From the NCBI RefSeq assembly GCF_025602895.1, contig NW_026516244.1, positions 310,001 through 374,000 on the forward strand: 64,000 nucleotides of DNA, read 5' to 3'. Within the stretch, counting starts at the first letter, position 1; each line of letters begins with the position of its first letter. The notes beneath the pieces are model-generated. The model was not told the origin of the DNA. It did no database searches and saw nothing but the letters and a program-made list of their open reading frames with translations. Source of the stretch: Polychytrium aggregatum (Eukaryota; Chytridiomycota; Chytridiomycetes; Polychytriales). The position numbers and the translations under genes are program-made. Below, piece by piece: positions 18,191 to 62,081 of this stretch.

Positions 18191-20192
18191 TTATCCAACA
18201 ATCGATTTGGATATCAGAATCTGCACCAGCCAAGTTAACGAGCCGGATGGCACAGGCGGAAGAGAGACATAGAGGTGAGTTCGACCGGCAACAATGAGCC
18301 CGGCATTGTTCACGGTTGCGAGCAGGACACAGGCGGCCGAAAGCCCACGCAACAGACACAGCATCCGCGATTTGCACAGAGTGTAACGCACCAGCCAGGC
18401 AATGATGAAGTAGAACAAGATCATGGGATAGAGAGCCAGCGCACGGCGGTTGCTCAGATTCAGGTCGCCCAGAAAGCCGACAGATGCTATTCATGGTGAT
18501 TCCGGTTGGGCCAGAAGGATAGACTAGTCAGCTTTGAATTCTTTAGCACTAGTTCCCCTCCCGCCACAGACACTGCAGGGGCTATGCGCTGCACTTACCA
18601 TAGCACGACCAGACAAAGGCAAGCCCAGTCAGGATGGCCCGGATCAAGAAATACGGCAGAAAGAGCGATGCAATCGAGCCAGCCACCAGCGGGAAGATGC
18701 AGTATCCCAGAACGCAGACGCTCTGGAAAAACGAGCTGTATCGCCCGAGCGGAGTGAGGACACGGGTGAGTGCATGCGTGGGCAAGTGAGTGCATGCGTG
18801 TGAGAGCCAGATAATCAGAGCACCAATGGTCATCGATCAGCAGGGCGCTATGGCATGAACTCGTCCTCAACGATCGATCCATCGCTTGTCTGCTATCCAC
18901 ACATTGTCATGACGGCGCGCAGTGTACGTCCCAAAGAACTTACAGTTTGCCGCCCAGGAGCTTGGAGTTGAGCGTGACGACGCCGGCACCGCACCAGATG
19001 ATCACAAAGATACCAGTGAATACCGTCGCAGATTGCTCCTTGGGGGCCGTGAGGCTCAGGCGGCTTTACCAAAACGAGATGCGAGGATGGTTATCGATTG
19101 GGCCGCCGATAATTCAAAGAGCCAGCGCCGCCCTGTATCACGCCCGATATCCGCCCACCGCACAATCGCGGGATACTACGCGGCCCCACAGTGTCGAAAG
19201 CCGAGCCGAGCCGAGCCGAAGATCCGATTGCAGGTAGGAGACCGTCGCTGTGTCGGTCAGCGTCGCACTTACATCGAAAGGACCAGGCACAAGAGCAGCG
19301 GGCCCCAGAGATCCCCTGGAGAGTGGAGCGAGACCCATGGTCAGCGGTCCGATCAACGAAGCAAAGAGGCGGCTGCAGATGGATTCGCGTCTGTTTCAGA
19401 TGCGGCTCGAACTCACAGTCTCGGAGAATGTTGGCATTGGCCTTGTGCGGAACAATCACCAGTTTCATTTTCTCCCAGATGTTCTTGAGATCGCGCATCT
19501 GATGGCCAACGGAGGCGAGAGCCACAGCAAGTGCATCGGCGGATGTTGTTAGCGACCTTGCCTGTCAGTGCATCACAGTTCCATACGGTCTCGATCATGT
19601 GGCAAGATGGCGAAGATTGACCCGACAACGGGACATAGTCCGTCGACACTTGGATATCTGCCTTGCCGCAGCGAGACACAGGGCCGTCCAGAATACTGGC
19701 GGGCAGCAAGCCAAAGTCGTTCCGAGGGACTGGCCAGGGCTCTACTGCGACCTCGTCATTATACTATGTCGCTGGATCCGACGAGCCGCTCTGGGCGCTC
19801 AAGCAGCTACAGCAGCTGCCCTTGGCCCTTGGCGGCCGATGCGTGCCAGTCGAGCTGCCGAGACCTTTGGGCCTGATGTTTCGAGAGAAGGCAGAGAGGC
19901 TGGCTCCCGACAGACCTCTCGAAGACGCCAGAGGACAATCAAAGTGACCGGCAGAGCAATCAGTAGCCACAGTAGCACTTACGATGGTAACGGATACGGG
20001 CTCGTCAAGGGTGTCTTCGTTGACCCTGGAGGTCTGCCCGGCGCCGCCGTAGCTTCCGCTGCTGCCGGCGGTTGGATTTTGGCCAATTCGGCCCTCAAGC
20101 GAGTCTGAGACCTGGATCGTTACGGAGGCCGCTGCGAGATCATCGTTGCCGTAGCTCGGCGCCTGTGTCGGAACAGAGGAGTACGAGGCCAT
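18191..20192 (-). CDS. YIPF6: YIPF6-type Yip1-domain Golgi membrane protein
   Basis: Exons 20192-19983, 19498-19417, 19315-19273, 19054-18944, 18735-18599 and 18486-18191 give 292 residues in frame. Yip1-domain proteins are multispanning ER/Golgi proteins that bind Rab GTPases and Yif1 partners. Recognisable blocks: TLDEPVSVTI, MRDLKNIW, ILRDWDLWGPLLLC (the DxWGP motif of YIPF6), VVTLNSKLLGGKL, SFFQSVCVLGYCIFPLV and NRRALALYPMILFYFIIAW. About 45 residues beyond the usual end of the family are encoded after the last helix, either a true extension or a missed intron at a GTGCGT just after IIAWL. The N-terminal 65 residues are polar. The start codon lies 4 nt from the divergent Fanzor ORF. Confidence 0.87.
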
Positions 20193-20196
20193 CGTC

Positions 20197-21399
20197 TTGG
20201 GCGGCAGGCGGAGGGCGAGTAAGATGCAGGGCAAGCCGGCAGGTGGATGGAGGCAAAAGGGCTGGGCGGAGCGCGCCAGGTCGTTCCTTGGCGAGCCCTC
20301 GCGGCTGCTCGTCTCGAATATGAATACACGCTGTAGACCAAAGGTGCAGCAAAAGTTGGAATGGATCCGCGGTCGGTTGACGGACGGTGTCAACAACCAG
20401 GATCGTCTCTGGCGCAGTTGCTTCAAGCTGCGTAGCTCCCTCTTCCGTGACCGGGATATCAATCACAAGCTGTTCAACTACGAGATCAGCACCGATGGCA
20501 TTGGATGCACCATCGGTCTCGTCAAGTTTGTGCCTCGAACCGATCGCACCGAGACCTCCGAGCCTCCTCCGACTGCCGAGCAGCGCATCCAGGCCCACAT
20601 CGGCGACCCAGACCCCAACCGTACCACTTGGATTGGCATCGATCCTGGAGTCGGCTCCATCTTCACGGCGGCCATCCAAGCACCGGGCCAACAAGACGAG
20701 GTGGTCTCATTCTCCAATGGTCACTATCAGCACATGTATGGCCACAAGTCCAACACCAAGTGGCACAATGCCAAGAAGAAGCAACTCGGCATCGAGACCT
20801 GGATGTCGACCACCCCCTCGCCCAAGGTGCAGTCCTCGGAGGCCTTCAAGGTCCATCTCACCCATGTCCTGCGACCGGAGCTGCGAGTGCAGCTCGACTT
20901 TCACCTTGGCAAGAAGGCCCGTCACCATCGCTTCACGGGCCACAAGAGGCGCCAAGTGGCCGTCGACAGGATGTGCAAGGCCGTCCTGAAGCACGCCCCG
21001 AGGGAGAAGGATGTGGTGATCGCCTTTGGCAATGCATCATGGCGACAGGGCAAGGGCTATGCATCCAGCCCTCGGAGGCAGCGGTTTGCTCGGTACTTTG
21101 AGCAGTTCGAGCACCACCGACGCCGTCCCAATCACCATCATGGAAGCGTCAAGGTAGTCTCGACGAACGAGTTCAACACCTCGCAGGTGTGCTCCAAGTG
21201 CCTGGAGCCAGTTCGGTTGGAAGGACTCGATGCGCCCAGTGTTGCGAATTCCCACTTTGTCAGGAGCTGCAAGAATCCCAGCTGCCGGACAGTGTGGAAT
21301 CGCGACGTCAATGCGGCGCGCAACATGATCACAGTGTGCAGGTCGATTGTGGAGACCGGAGGGCGACCGGCGGTCTTCACTCGGAGGCTGCCAAAGTGA
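20197..21399 (+). CDS. Fanzor (eukaryotic TnpB-like RNA-guided nuclease), probably 5'-shortened
   Basis: Intronless 400-residue ORF in an intron-rich neighbourhood. Visible elements: RuvC-I GIDPGVGS (Asp149), RuvC-II region VVIAFGNASW where the canonical Glu is absent, an alternative Glu (Glu325, STNEFNTSQ) about 46 residues later, a zinc ribbon (Cys332, Cys335, Cys358, Cys363), and RuvC-III WNRDVNAARN (Asp370). This arrangement is the hallmark reported for Fanzor, whose members are programmable RNA-guided DNA nucleases carried by eukaryotic transposons. Fanzor-like similarity appears to begin near residue 45 (RPKVQQKLEWIRGRL). The first ATG lies in the YIPF6 promoter, and Met42 (20320) is an alternative. 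The N-terminal domain expected of full Fanzors is missing, so this may be a truncated copy or may use an unseen upstream exon. No frameshift or stop interrupts the nuclease core. No terminal inverted repeat was found. Confidence 0.85.
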   Translation: MGGRRRASKMQGKPAGGWRQKGWAERARSFLGEPSRLLVSNMNTRCRPKVQQKLEWIRGRLTDGVNNQDRLWRSCFKLRSSLFRDRDINHKLFNYEISTDGIGCTIGLVKFVPRTDRTETSEPPPTAEQRIQAHIGDPDPNRTTWIGIDPGVGSIFTAAIQAPGQQDEVVSFSNGHYQHMYGHKSNTKWHNAKKKQLGIETWMSTTPSPKVQSSEAFKVHLTHVLRPELRVQLDFHLGKKARHHRFTGHKRRQVAVDRMCKAVLKHAPREKDVVIAFGNASWRQGKGYASSPRRQRFARYFEQFEHHRRRPNHHHGSVKVVSTNEFNTSQVCSKCLEPVRLEGLDAPSVANSHFVRSCKNPSCRTVWNRDVNAARNMITVCRSIVETGGRPAVFTRRLPK

Positions 21400-21496
21400 T
21401 CTGTTATATTTCTTATGGCATAGTTAGACGCATGCCATCACATACTACGCTATCAATTGCGGGTTTCCCGTTGTCAGGGCCGATATTAATAGTTTA
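21400..21496 (+). other. Fanzor 3' flank with two hairpins (candidate guide-RNA region)
   Basis: This AT-rich 97-bp stretch directly follows the Fanzor stop. It contains ATGGCAT (21415-21421) paired with ATGCCAT (21432-21438) across a 10-nt loop, then CGGG-TTT-CCCG (21460-21470). In TnpB and Fanzor elements the guide RNA is typically encoded at or beyond the 3' end of the nuclease gene. Assigning that role here is inference. Confidence 0.35.
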
Positions 21497-21539
21497 GTGC
21501 AGGTCGATTGCCCTCCCAGCAACCGACGAGCAGCCCAGC

Positions 21540-22049
21540 TCATTGCATGGGCGATCCAGAGGATGCGGCTCTCGCTCGCAGGCGGCCACTGGCATCATGG
21601 TCGCAGTGCGCCCAGACAAATGCAATCGAGTATACCGGAGAGAGCAGCCCACTGGTTCTTGCATGCACATCGATGGCCAGGGCCAACCTCATCACACTCG
21701 CCCAAGGACCGAGCTGTTGCTCAATCATCACAGCCCACACCGTGGACAGAGCGTTGCTAACAGATGCGGATGGGGTGTCGCGACCCATCGCCGGTGTGAA
21801 TGCAGCCAAGAAAGACGACTGCAGGGAGTGCAGATCGAAGATCACATCGTATCGGTCGTCCGTGTTCAAATCGAATTGGATGTCTGTTTGGCTACATCGC
21901 TGGTGGCAAGCAGTCGTTGGCGACAGACCGGTGGAGGATCGGCGGGCCACTCAGAATGTGCATGCAGACATTTGTTGTTCGTCCCAGGGTTGTGTCGATC
22001 GTCAGGGCCTGGTCATTCACTGTCGGTATTCTTCGAGGATAGATGCCAT
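21540..22049 (-). CDS. Candidate small gene, unrecognised
   Basis: ATG at 22049 (MASILEEYR) splices 22021 to 21891 (GTGAAT..GTAG, phase 2) into an open frame ending at 21540, giving 126 residues in frame. The segment after the junction (DIQFDLNTDDRYDVIFDLHS) looks protein-like; the rest is less convincing. I recognise no family. It ends about 30 nt from the Fanzor 3' flank and starts about 120 nt past the PRKRIP1 stop on the same strand. Treat as possible. Confidence 0.35.
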
Positions 22050-59700: not shown

Positions 59701-59886
59701 ATCCACTCGATGTGGGAGTGCAGTACATTCACTTGCCCTCTGAACAACTCCATACTAACTCGATATCAAGATGCTTGGCCTTCTCGGGTCGCTTGGCTTC
59801 CCGGCACTGTGAGCACACCTGGAGATCGAGTCGCTTGAATCGCCGTCGCCTGGGTGGCGTTCTTGATTCAAAACACTGAGTGTTTA
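59701..59886. other. Resumed minisatellite and short ORF fragment
   Basis: The first 25 bp continue the interrupted minisatellite. The minus strand then holds a short open frame (59929-59729) that starts in the palindrome (FVTQYRHALA) and goes on to a Cys-containing basic segment (LDLQVCSQCREAKRP), probably a fragment of another mobile element. Confidence 0.4.
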
Positions 59887-60039
59887 TGGCCAGCGCGTGA
59901 CGGTATTGGGTAACAAAGTATTTGATCAACGGTCAAAATCAAGGTGTCCCATTACAGGCGATCCAATATAAAACGGGACACCCGGGATTTTGACCATTGA
60001 TCGAATATTTTGTTACCCAATGTTATCGCGCGCTGGCCA
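59887..60039. repeat. 153-bp imperfect palindrome (head-to-head transposon ends)
   Basis: Left arm 59887-59950 (starts TGGCCAGCGCG, includes TTGGGTAACAAA and GGTCAAAATC, ends GGTGTCCC) is matched at about 84 percent by the reverse complement of 59975-60039 across a 24-nt spacer. The mariner ORF starts at the outer end of the right arm. Confidence 0.85.
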
Positions 60040-60845
60040 TGACCATTCGCCACACATCCGACTTTCGCACCGCCGCATTGCGATGCTACGCCCTCATCCA
60101 TAGCCTGCGTAAGGTCGCCTCCATATTCAGTGTATCCAAGAGCACCATCCATCGATGGCACCGAGGATGCAAGCTGGATGACCCATCCCGGGTCCCAGCT
60201 CGCAGATCCACTTTCTTCGAGCAGGCATGTCCAGTCATTCGCACCCTGATTGAACAGGACCCGTTCCAGACTGGTCCTGTGTTGCGATGCAAGCTCGAGT
60301 CCATCCTCCAGAGGAAAGTATCACTCTCACTCTGCCACACTGCCATCCACCGAGCAGGTCTCTCACACAAGAGGGCAACACACCTCTACAAGTCCAAGCG
60401 ACTGGATGAGCGAGTGGCACAGTTCAGGGACCGAGTCCGTTCCATCGACCCGCGACGATTCGTTTTTGTCGATGAGACGGGGATCAGGAAATCCATTTTC
60501 CCTCTCTACGGATACTCACCGAAGGGCGTCCCACTCCGTCAGCGCAATCACATGAAACACAAGTCTGTCTCGGCTGCATTTGCCATCAACCACTCTGGTG
60601 TGCTGCATCGCATGTACATCCCCACATCATTCAAGACACACTCGATGGTCGAGTTCTTTGAGCGAGCGACCTTCCCAGACGACTCTGTGGTTGTGATGGA
60701 CAATGTCAGCATGCACAAGACAATGGCTGTCCTGGACTGCATCGAGCGCCGAGGATGGTCAGTGATCTTCACCCCACCTGCCTCACCCGACTTCAATCCC
60801 ATCGAGAACTTCTTTGGGGTTGAGTCCCCACCGATTTGGGGTTGA
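60039..60845 (+). pseudogene. Tc1/mariner (IS630-type) transposase, 3' truncated
   Basis: From ATG 60039 (MTIRHTSDFRTAALRCYAL) the frame reads an N-terminal HTH (LRKVASIFSVSKSTIHRWHR), a second DNA-binding segment and the DDE/D catalytic core. First Asp in FVFVDETG, second in SVVVMDNVSMHK, third acidic residue in SPDFNPIENFF. These cut-and-paste enzymes act in the nucleus on TIRs at TA sites. Similarity ends at about 60812, where unrelated sequence (TTTGGGGTTGAG repeats) adds a few spurious codons before a stop. The C-terminal end of the enzyme and the right TIR are therefore missing. Catalytic residues are present, but the copy is probably dead. Confidence 0.8.
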
Positions 60846-60867
60846 GTTCCTCCAATTTGGGGTTGAG
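60813..60867 (+). repeat. TTTGGGGTTGAG repeat, 3 copies, at an element boundary
   Basis: Copies at 60813, 60835 and 60856 (spacing 22 and 21 bp) begin exactly where transposase similarity stops. They precede a TATA box (60983) and the next ORF. They may be the left end of the element that carries the Fanzor-like ORF. Confidence 0.7.
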
Positions 60868-60982
60868 CTCCCCAATCACGCCGCCGTTCTCACGTTCACA
60901 TCCCTGGCTTGAACCTCTCGGCGATTTTTGAACAGGGTCACTTCCCCAACCAGCCCGCAAAGACGGGCTCCTGCTCTCGGGT

Positions 60983-60988
60983 ATAAAT
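60983..60988 (+). promoter_or_regulatory. TATA box before the Fanzor-like N-terminal ORF
   Basis: GGTATAAATG lies 132 bp upstream of the ATG at 61115 within the presumed mobile element. Confidence 0.5.
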
Positions 60989-61114
60989 GCCACACCTTCG
61001 TCCTGCTGCTTTCTTCCCTCATCTCGCCTTGATTTGATCATCGCGCCATTGTACGATAAAAAAGTCTCTGCTCTGACCAGTACCACTGGCAGGCATCCAG
61101 CATCCTCTGCCCCC

Positions 61115-61941
61115 ATGCCTCCGAAGCGCAAGGGTACCGGTGATGGCCAGCCTCGGCCACCCAGGCCCAAGAAAGCCAAGTCACAGTCGGAGCCTGTCTC
61201 TGGTTCGTATTCTGATCCCACACATGCTTGTTTCTCTGTTGCTCCGTCGCTCACCACCACTGCTTCTGCAGATCCAATGGATGTCGATCCCACCGAGCCT
61301 GGTCCATCTACTTCCTCGAGTACCGGCAAGCGATGTCGCCAGTGCGATGGCACCGATCACGAGCGAAGCAACACCAACAAGTGTCCCAAATACCGGCCCC
61401 TCAAGAGTTCTGTCGTCCCACTCGTGGATGGAAGGTCATCCGCCCCTCAGTTCAGCTGCTTCAAGCAGACCATGGATGGCTGTTGTCTCAATCCCGCTCT
61501 CCGCGACAAGATCCAGGCCACCGTCGAGGCCATGACCCAGATCCAGTTCGAGGCATCCAGGCTGCTCAACCTGCACATCCTGAGGTGCATCGAGCAGGAT
61601 CTTCCCGTCCCCGTCATCTCCAGGGCCACCCCTGCTTTCGTTCGCCAATGCTTCAAGATCGTCCAGGACGGTGCCCTCTCCCCGACCGGGGACAATGAGA
61701 AATACAACGAGCATCTGGTCGCTTCCTTTCGCGACTACCAGACCACTCGGCACGCAGACCTGCCTCCGGCCCCTCGTCTGCCTGATGGTGCTCACAGTCA
61801 GCTTCTCACACTGGCTGTCAATGCCTATGCTGCCAACTGCACCACCCACCTCGACCTGGCCTACTGGAGACTCCTTCGTCGCTTCTGTGCTGCCGTCTTC
61901 CCAGCCAACAAGCACAAGCACGAAGCCATCGAGGCCTGTCT
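61115..61941 (+). pseudogene. N-terminal half of a Fanzor-like gene, cut by an LTR
   Basis: The ATG at 61115 opens a basic, NLS-like segment (MPPKRKGTGDG, PRPKKAK), then a Ser/Pro linker. A CCHC-like knuckle follows (CRQCDGTDHERSNTNKCPKY), then a helical region (IQFEASRLLNLHILRCIEQ, FVRQCFKIVQDG, NCTTHLDLAYWRLLRRF). This order resembles the N-terminal domains of fungal Fanzor proteins as I recall them. No RuvC part follows, because at 61942 the sequence switches to an LTR and ends after 11 LTR-encoded residues. Length before the break is about 276 residues. Assignment to Fanzor is by pattern only; other chytrid mobile-element proteins with a CCHC knuckle are possible. Confidence 0.5.
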
Positions 61942-62081
61942 TGTGATGACCAGCATCACAACGGACCAATGAGATTGTCCCGCATGCTCTCGCCCTCCGC
62001 ACCAATCATGAGTCCCCACGTGTTTGTTTGCCCCCATGCATGAGCACGCGCCGTTGCCACCCGCGTCTACTGGTTTCCTGC
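61942..62081 (+). repeat. LTR fragment, first 140 bp of gypsy-2 LTR, plus orientation
   Basis: TGTGATGACCAGC to GGTTTCCTGC is matched exactly, as far as I compared, by the reverse complement of 62361-62500. It interrupts the Fanzor-like ORF and is itself cut at 62082 by an inverted copy of the same LTR. Confidence 0.85.

Follow-up and report, generated by a model that had tools for sequence, protein, structure and literature searches.

A Fanzor1 nuclease core within a chimeric element

A 64,000-nucleotide stretch of the genome of the chytrid Polychytrium aggregatum (contig NW_026516244.1, positions 310,001 to 374,000; hereafter, the window) contains an open reading frame (ORF) for part of a Fanzor, a eukaryotic RNA-guided nuclease, embedded in DNA related to two Fanzor transposon families of the same genome, here termed Fz-A and Fz-B. 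An initial annotation, made from the sequence alone, had described this ORF as an intact, compact Fanzor of about 360 residues situated beside YIPF6. The features of the locus, in window coordinates, are as follows.

20155..21399, plus strand: open frame from stop to stop, 414 amino acids
20296..20383 (20296..20379 as a feature row), plus strand: 5' segment common to the left end of Fz-B, about 90 to 91% to Fz-B copies
20371..20398, plus strand: chimera junction, located by exact string search of the genome
20380..21448, plus strand: C-terminal part of an Fz-A Fanzor (about residue 453 to the stop) and 49 bp of 3' region, about 93 to 96% to other copies
20641..20643, plus strand: RuvC-I Asp, D149, in the DPG motif (GIDPG); aligns with SpuFz1 D383
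21169..21171, plus strand: relocated RuvC Glu, E325, six residues before the zinc finger; aligns with SpuFz1 E541
21190..21285, plus strand: zinc ribbon (PF07282), Cys332/335 and Cys358/363, with codons at 21190, 21199, 21268 and 21283
21304..21306, plus strand: RuvC-III Asp, D370, in WNRDVNAARN; aligns with SpuFz1 D606
21415..21438, plus strand: hairpin just after the stop, in the same place in Fz-A; candidate part of a guide-RNA scaffold
21449..21506 (from 21448 in homology), plus strand: right end with an imperfect terminal hairpin, matching elsewhere

The first ATG of the ORF is at 20224 and the next at 20320; residue numbers follow the initial annotation and start from the TTG at 20197. 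About the first 75 codons of the frame are read-through of the flank and of the foreign 5' segment.

PF07282 (Cas12f1-like TNB; Pfam) matched the ORF at 7.1e-10, above the cut-off. When a profile built from the ORF and 50 homologues was searched against solved structures, the best were SpuFz1 (8gkh_P; 1.7e-55), GtFz1 (1.9e-42) and PpFz1 (2.6e-42), with the mimivirus TnpB-like protein L79 behind these three Fanzor1 enzymes (1.4e-11). The D-E-D triad of Fanzor1 was present in the profile alignment to 8gkh_P, in which the three acids of the ORF fall opposite D383, E541 and D606 (SpuFz1 numbers were counted by hand on the printed alignment, with an offset of 394 from the tagged chain). These are metal-binding acids in SpuFz1 (PMC10432273; statements drawn from this paper, PMC10711439 and PMC3627910 refer to excerpts of them). 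A Glu lying six residues ahead of the zinc finger's first Cys occupies the "alternative" place of Fanzors (PMC10711439), and the window core carries the DPG and relocated-Glu motif of that paper, with GIDPG at 20641 and E(21169)-x6-C(21190). By inspection, it also contains the Fanzor1 motif D-X(125,275)-[TS][TS]XX-C4-X(5,50)-RD of PMC3627910, with 178 residues between D149 and T328 and 5 residues between Cys363 and RD. This catalytic and zinc residue pattern is far beyond chance, and by its sequence the window core belongs to Fanzor1. The Asp, Glu and Cys residues listed by the initial annotation are thus real, their codons having been checked; it was also correct in seeing no Glu at the RuvC-II position (AFGNASW) and in placing the relocated Glu and the family.

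The N-terminal lobe is absent

Compared with full-length Fz-A copies, DNA homology starts at 20378/20383, at about residue 453 of the parent protein, and runs to 21448. About the first 450 residues of the 790-residue parent are absent, comprising REC and part of WED, and the C-terminal part of WED is retained. The N-terminal REC and WED domains were sought in the ORF and not found. At this locus tblastn covered only residues 326 to 676 of the full-length relative P0002, and the predicted model of the window protein spanned only SpuFz1 residues 292 to 633, versus 18 to 633 for P0002. The predicted local distance difference test (pLDDT) score was at least 90 for 239 of 391 residues, including much of the RuvC part, which exceeded 90, and was below 50 for residues 1 to 54 counted from the ATG at 20224; about 55 residues after this ATG are non-homologous read-through. 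The encoded fragment probably folds as a RuvC/zinc-ribbon domain. It would be unable to work as an RNA-guided nuclease because it lacks REC and part of WED, the regions that together read the target-adjacent motif (TAM) and cradle the guide-target duplex. In SpuFz1, TAM recognition relies on residues of both REC and WED (PMC10432273). Retention of the catalytic residues would be expected in any recent copy and is no demonstration of function. A complete compact Fanzor was rejected on the absence of the N-terminal lobe; the window copy is neither complete nor compact, and the initial description of it as both did not hold.

The same chimeric junction is found at several loci

The Fz-A piece, from about residue 453 to past the stop, was shown to be joined to an Fz-B-like left end, with a different right end behind it. 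The 5' segment at 20296-20379 is 98% identical to two other chimera loci, and the left end of the window copy lacks its outermost ~18 bp. The junction, GGTCGGTTGACGG followed directly by ACGGTGTCAACAACC, had eight exact matches in the genome and one with two mismatches, with none in the control. The sites lie on contigs C51/C142, C323, C334, C356/C367, C375/C396 and C52; the window copy is on C356 and a near-twin is on C367. The contig pairs look like alleles or duplicate contigs, and the exact sites make five loci when suspected allele pairs are counted once. Printed flanks differ between the chimera loci. The right end of the window copy is not of the type seen in the fetched full-length Fz-A copies; its own type was found at eleven other places, the chimera loci and the twin on C367 among them. 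Considered as a pair, the ends of the window copy are of other types than those of Fz-A, and the outermost left end is gone. A plain 5'-truncated Fz-A copy was rejected because the sequences outside the Fz-A homology at either end recur at other loci.

We conclude, with a probability of about 0.9, that the window locus is what remains of a non-autonomous transposon, 5'-truncated and chimeric, and that it carries the nuclease half of a Fanzor1 gene. The chimera probably moved, because the same junction is present at five or six loci. In the simplest reading, the junction would have arisen once, related elements would then have supplied the transposase that moved the chimera in trans, and the copy beside the YIPF6-like gene would afterwards have lost its outermost left end. 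The remnant may retain a 3' hairpin region resembling that of a guide RNA, which would make it comparable to the Fanzor-less "ghost" loci of Spizellomyces. Of the earlier proposal that the gene arrived by transposition, the setting in mobile-element DNA stands, and the copy itself is a chimeric remnant with no recognized target duplication.

The YIPF6 neighbor was not confirmed. On the minus strand, about 100 bp away from the element, are stretches that look YIPF6-like by eye and have an ATG at 20192; Pfam did not confirm them, and no Yip1 match was obtained on the flanking ORFs tried. Five flanking ORFs gave nothing up to 0.01, and three searched up to an E value of 1 gave only TACC_C (0.11), below the cut-off.

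Evidence against the remnant and alternative explanations

Several observations weigh against a foreign-ended, mobile and inactive remnant. The right-end type of the window copy also occurs at a locus (L057) that retains 1.5 kb or more of Fz-A sequence, so this end may be that of an Fz-A subfamily, leaving only the left join foreign. No target-site duplication was recognized by eye around the window chimera, and the case for its transposition rests on loci that have the junction in common and differ in their printed flanks. Both allele-like copies (C356 and C367) have an open frame, the Fz-A-derived core of C51, C142 and C323 is likewise open to the stop, and the nuclease domain might act in ways that do not need the REC lobe. 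Private changes numbered 4 silent and 12 replacing in the chimeric copies (C356, C367, C51/C142 and C323) and 28 silent and 37 replacing in 23 Fz-A copies; the direction is that of lost constraint, and the contrast is not significant (Fisher P = 0.26). Moreover, the exchange of variants among copies described below blurs any selection test.

That the ORF is a compact yet functional Fanzor, a minimal RNA-guided nuclease of ~360 residues, we regard as highly improbable. All catalytic and zinc residues are present in an open frame, and the RuvC part of the model is of high confidence; against this, the protein has no REC and an incomplete WED, its parent in this genome has 790 residues, the ~55 N-terminal residues are low-confidence read-through, the ends of the element are of other types, and TAM reading in SpuFz1 depends on the very domains affected (PMC10432273). 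The truncated protein might instead have been domesticated as a dominant-negative or trans-acting modulator of full-length Fanzors, as the open frames just described and the recurrence of the junction at five or six loci would allow. This is very unlikely, given that C51, C142 and C323 each have one TGA in the matched stretch, upstream of the Fz-A core, that the C375/C396 copy matches in broken pieces, and that private changes lean, not significantly, to the replacing side. The full-length Fz-A gene looks constrained, with a ratio of replacing to silent polymorphism (pN/pS) of 0.31 among seven copies, which were picked for open frames and are biased in that respect.

In the remaining alternative, which we consider possible but doubtful, only the 3' hairpin region of the window copy matters, giving a putative guide RNA that reads into the right flank and is used in trans by full-length Fanzors. 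In Spizellomyces punctatus, the source of the guide RNA is the ~80 nt separating the stop codon from the right end, and there are 134 Fanzor-less ghost loci (PMC10432273). The stop-to-end stretch of one Fz-A copy (L034) folds better than shuffles (z = -2.16; 6/200 as good), and the first hairpin after the stop is kept in the window: its four-pair stem is paired in 97.1% of cells across 17 copies, and in four of these sequences one pair has both of its bases changed. The count of two-sided pairs was reached by 418 of 500 shuffles and the covariation score by none of 500; this lone covarying pair may be a single event. Against the donor reading, the window copy has another right end in place of that of full-length Fz-A, the window 3' stretch folds more weakly (z = -1.44; 18/200), and Rfam gave no match up to an E value of 1 in 20000-22000. 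By analogy, the 3' stretch as a source of guide RNA is a lead, not proof.

The parent families

A genome search with the window core gave 101 scored matches, 60 of which lie in frames of 800 residues or more. Full-length Fz-A is ~3.74 kb and encodes a Tc1-type transposase and the 790-residue Fanzor between inverted ends flanked by TA duplications. Seven loci (L032 to L038), chosen for long frames, were fetched at length. A transposase frame of 313 to 325 residues, upstream of and in line with the Fanzor, was present in four of the seven (L033, L034, L036 and L038), and the DDE_3 family (PF13358) matched L033 at 6.8e-23, as for a Tc1-kind DDE transposase. The exact transposase motif searched for is changed in L038; L037 has a 261-residue part, L035 lacks the frame, and L032 is cut at the left. 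The left-end sequence of Fz-A had 394 genome matches with at most three mismatches, and none in the control. Across the collected loci, TA followed 22 of 24 Fz-A right ends (25 matches were found, and one, at L036, was left out as Fz-B sequence) and preceded six of seven left-end matches, giving the terminal inverted repeats and TA duplication of Tc1/mariner elements.

Fz-B (L071) encodes an 856-residue Fanzor. Searching the genome with P0003, a P. aggregatum protein record 100% identical to the genome over 281 residues, yielded 138 scored matches among 980 candidates, and many of the matched frames were ~300 residues long. Many of these Fz-B derivatives match P0003 only from about residue 57 to 79 on, past the RuvC-I Asp at residue 30; mostly without a stop in the matched part, they are internally deleted, amplified Fanzor derivatives. 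At L036 an Fz-A copy is nested inside an Fz-B right end at TA, and at L038 another end-like sequence directly abuts the Fz-A right end.

The window also contains a second Fz-A piece.

59952..61948, plus strand: left end, transposase part and N-terminal part of the Fanzor

It begins with the left end TACAGGCGATCC..., continues with transposase sequence at 59994-60821, up to residue 276, and holds the first 278 Fanzor residues in frame (61115-61948) before it is cut at 61948. The window thus holds N-terminal and C-terminal Fanzor pieces apart, and parent residues 279 to 452 are matched in neither. Just before the left end of the second piece lies an Fz-B-type Fanzor C-terminal scrap (59741-59826, minus strand).

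Elements combining Tc1/mariner with Fanzor1, chimeric Fanzor elements and Fanzor transposons in hundreds of copies have already been described (PMC3627910, PMC10711439), so Fz-A is a known sort of element and the window locus a degenerate derivative of it. PGv-1 and PUl-1 resemble Fz-A in that each combines a Tc1/mariner transposase with Fanzor1 in a single element that has TA duplications (PMC3627910); they differ in host, Fz-A is high-copy here, and the window copy is only a fragment. Spu-1, with SpuFz1 (PMC10432273, PMC3627910), shares with the Fanzor described here the Fanzor1 type, the D/E/D triad, the relocated Glu and the C4 zinc finger, and with its elements the terminal inverted repeats, the duplication of TA, a brief structured region following the stop codon, a fixed base or bases in the left flank (CA in Spu-1, T before the TA in Fz-A) and copies without the full gene. 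It differs in having, according to PMC10432273, no transposase inside its repeats, whereas Fz-A has one; unlike Spu-1, the window copy has no N-terminal lobe and has other ends. The S. punctatus ghost loci, like the window element, are non-autonomous derivatives that keep the post-stop region (PMC10432273), but ~1 kb of Fanzor coding sequence remains in the window element, its right end is of another kind, and a guide RNA is here only a candidate. In the open-licence literature we found nothing on Fanzor together with Polychytrium.

Left flanks and exchange between copies

Among 179 exact Fz-A left ends, which include duplicate contigs, 173 were preceded by T (TTACAGG...) and six by another base. 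The base following the right-end TA in 22 Fz-A rows showed no matching preference (C, 7; G, 7; A, 5; T, 3). A transposase with a palindromic target taste is expected to act symmetrically. We infer that TTA may be the TAM of the Fz-A Fanzor because the preference is left-only, as a TAM would act, rather than symmetrical. The analogy is with Spu-1, in which a CATA TAM and a conserved CA before the left end occur on the left side only (PMC10432273).

Linkage between variants was examined in 23 Fz-A copies (L006 to L030 minus L025 and L028, whose match began further upstream in the query). Over 46 two-state sites, the mean squared correlation (r2) was 0.63 below 20 bp, 0.06 at 20 to 60 bp and 0.03 to 0.06 beyond, and 83 to 98% of site pairs beyond 20 bp had all four combinations; none of 1,000 shuffles of the positions gave a decay as strong. 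Ten Fz-B copies (L061 to L070) behaved alike (r2 of 0.54, 0.20 and then 0.12 to 0.14). Near linkage equilibrium beyond ~20 bp suggests ectopic gene conversion, and exchange rather than repeated mutation is likely because the variants often come as linked blocks (e.g., 20447-20466). Among the papers listed from the open-licence literature on Fanzor and gene conversion, none dealt with such copy exchange, judged by title.

The allele-like pairs were compared as well. C356 and C367 had 42 differences in 4,242 bp, 38 of them inside 20436-21048; both states of 32 of these 38 sites also occur among 28 other copies (L003 to L030), and two states are private to the window and four to C367. For C268/C302, 28 of 38 substitutions lie inside the Fz-B piece, and for C51/C142 all seven lie inside the element; C396/C375 had just five substitutions, and 498 indel columns prevented comparison of C381/C187. 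Two Fz-A pairs were nearly identical: C121/C361 (frame of 806 residues), with no mismatches and two gaps in 2,501 columns, and C223/C252 (frame of 380 residues), with one mismatch in 2,301 columns. These patterns fit recent ectopic gene conversion at some loci. Assembly or polishing mixing is possible for the divergent core of C356 versus C367, and the near-identical pairs argue against blanket mixing. PF03184, used as a non-Fanzor transposon control, had no match in the genome or in 14 control genomes and was uninformative on exchange.

A role of Fanzor in the TTA flank or in copy exchange is unproven. Tentatively, and against the odds as we judge them, Fanzor cleavage may shape its own transposon family through retention of the left-end TAM (TTA) and through RNA-guided breaks driving short-tract ectopic conversion. 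If so, only insertions with the Fanzor TAM at the left end would be retained, breaks in copies or empty sites would bring dispersed copies toward linkage equilibrium and give rise to chimeric derivatives, and even old truncated copies such as that in the window would be partly overwritten on one haplotype.

Implications

Correcting the compact-Fanzor reading of the window copy illustrates that RuvC-only pieces are sorted from full Fanzor enzymes by the copy family, not by motif. It is the parent family, not the window copy, that makes the system interesting: with a transposon encoding both transposase and Fanzor and with hundreds of matching left ends, this genome lets Fanzor biology be studied at scale. 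The predicted TAM (TTA), the predicted guide-RNA stretch and the exchange between copies make the service of Fanzor to its transposon testable.
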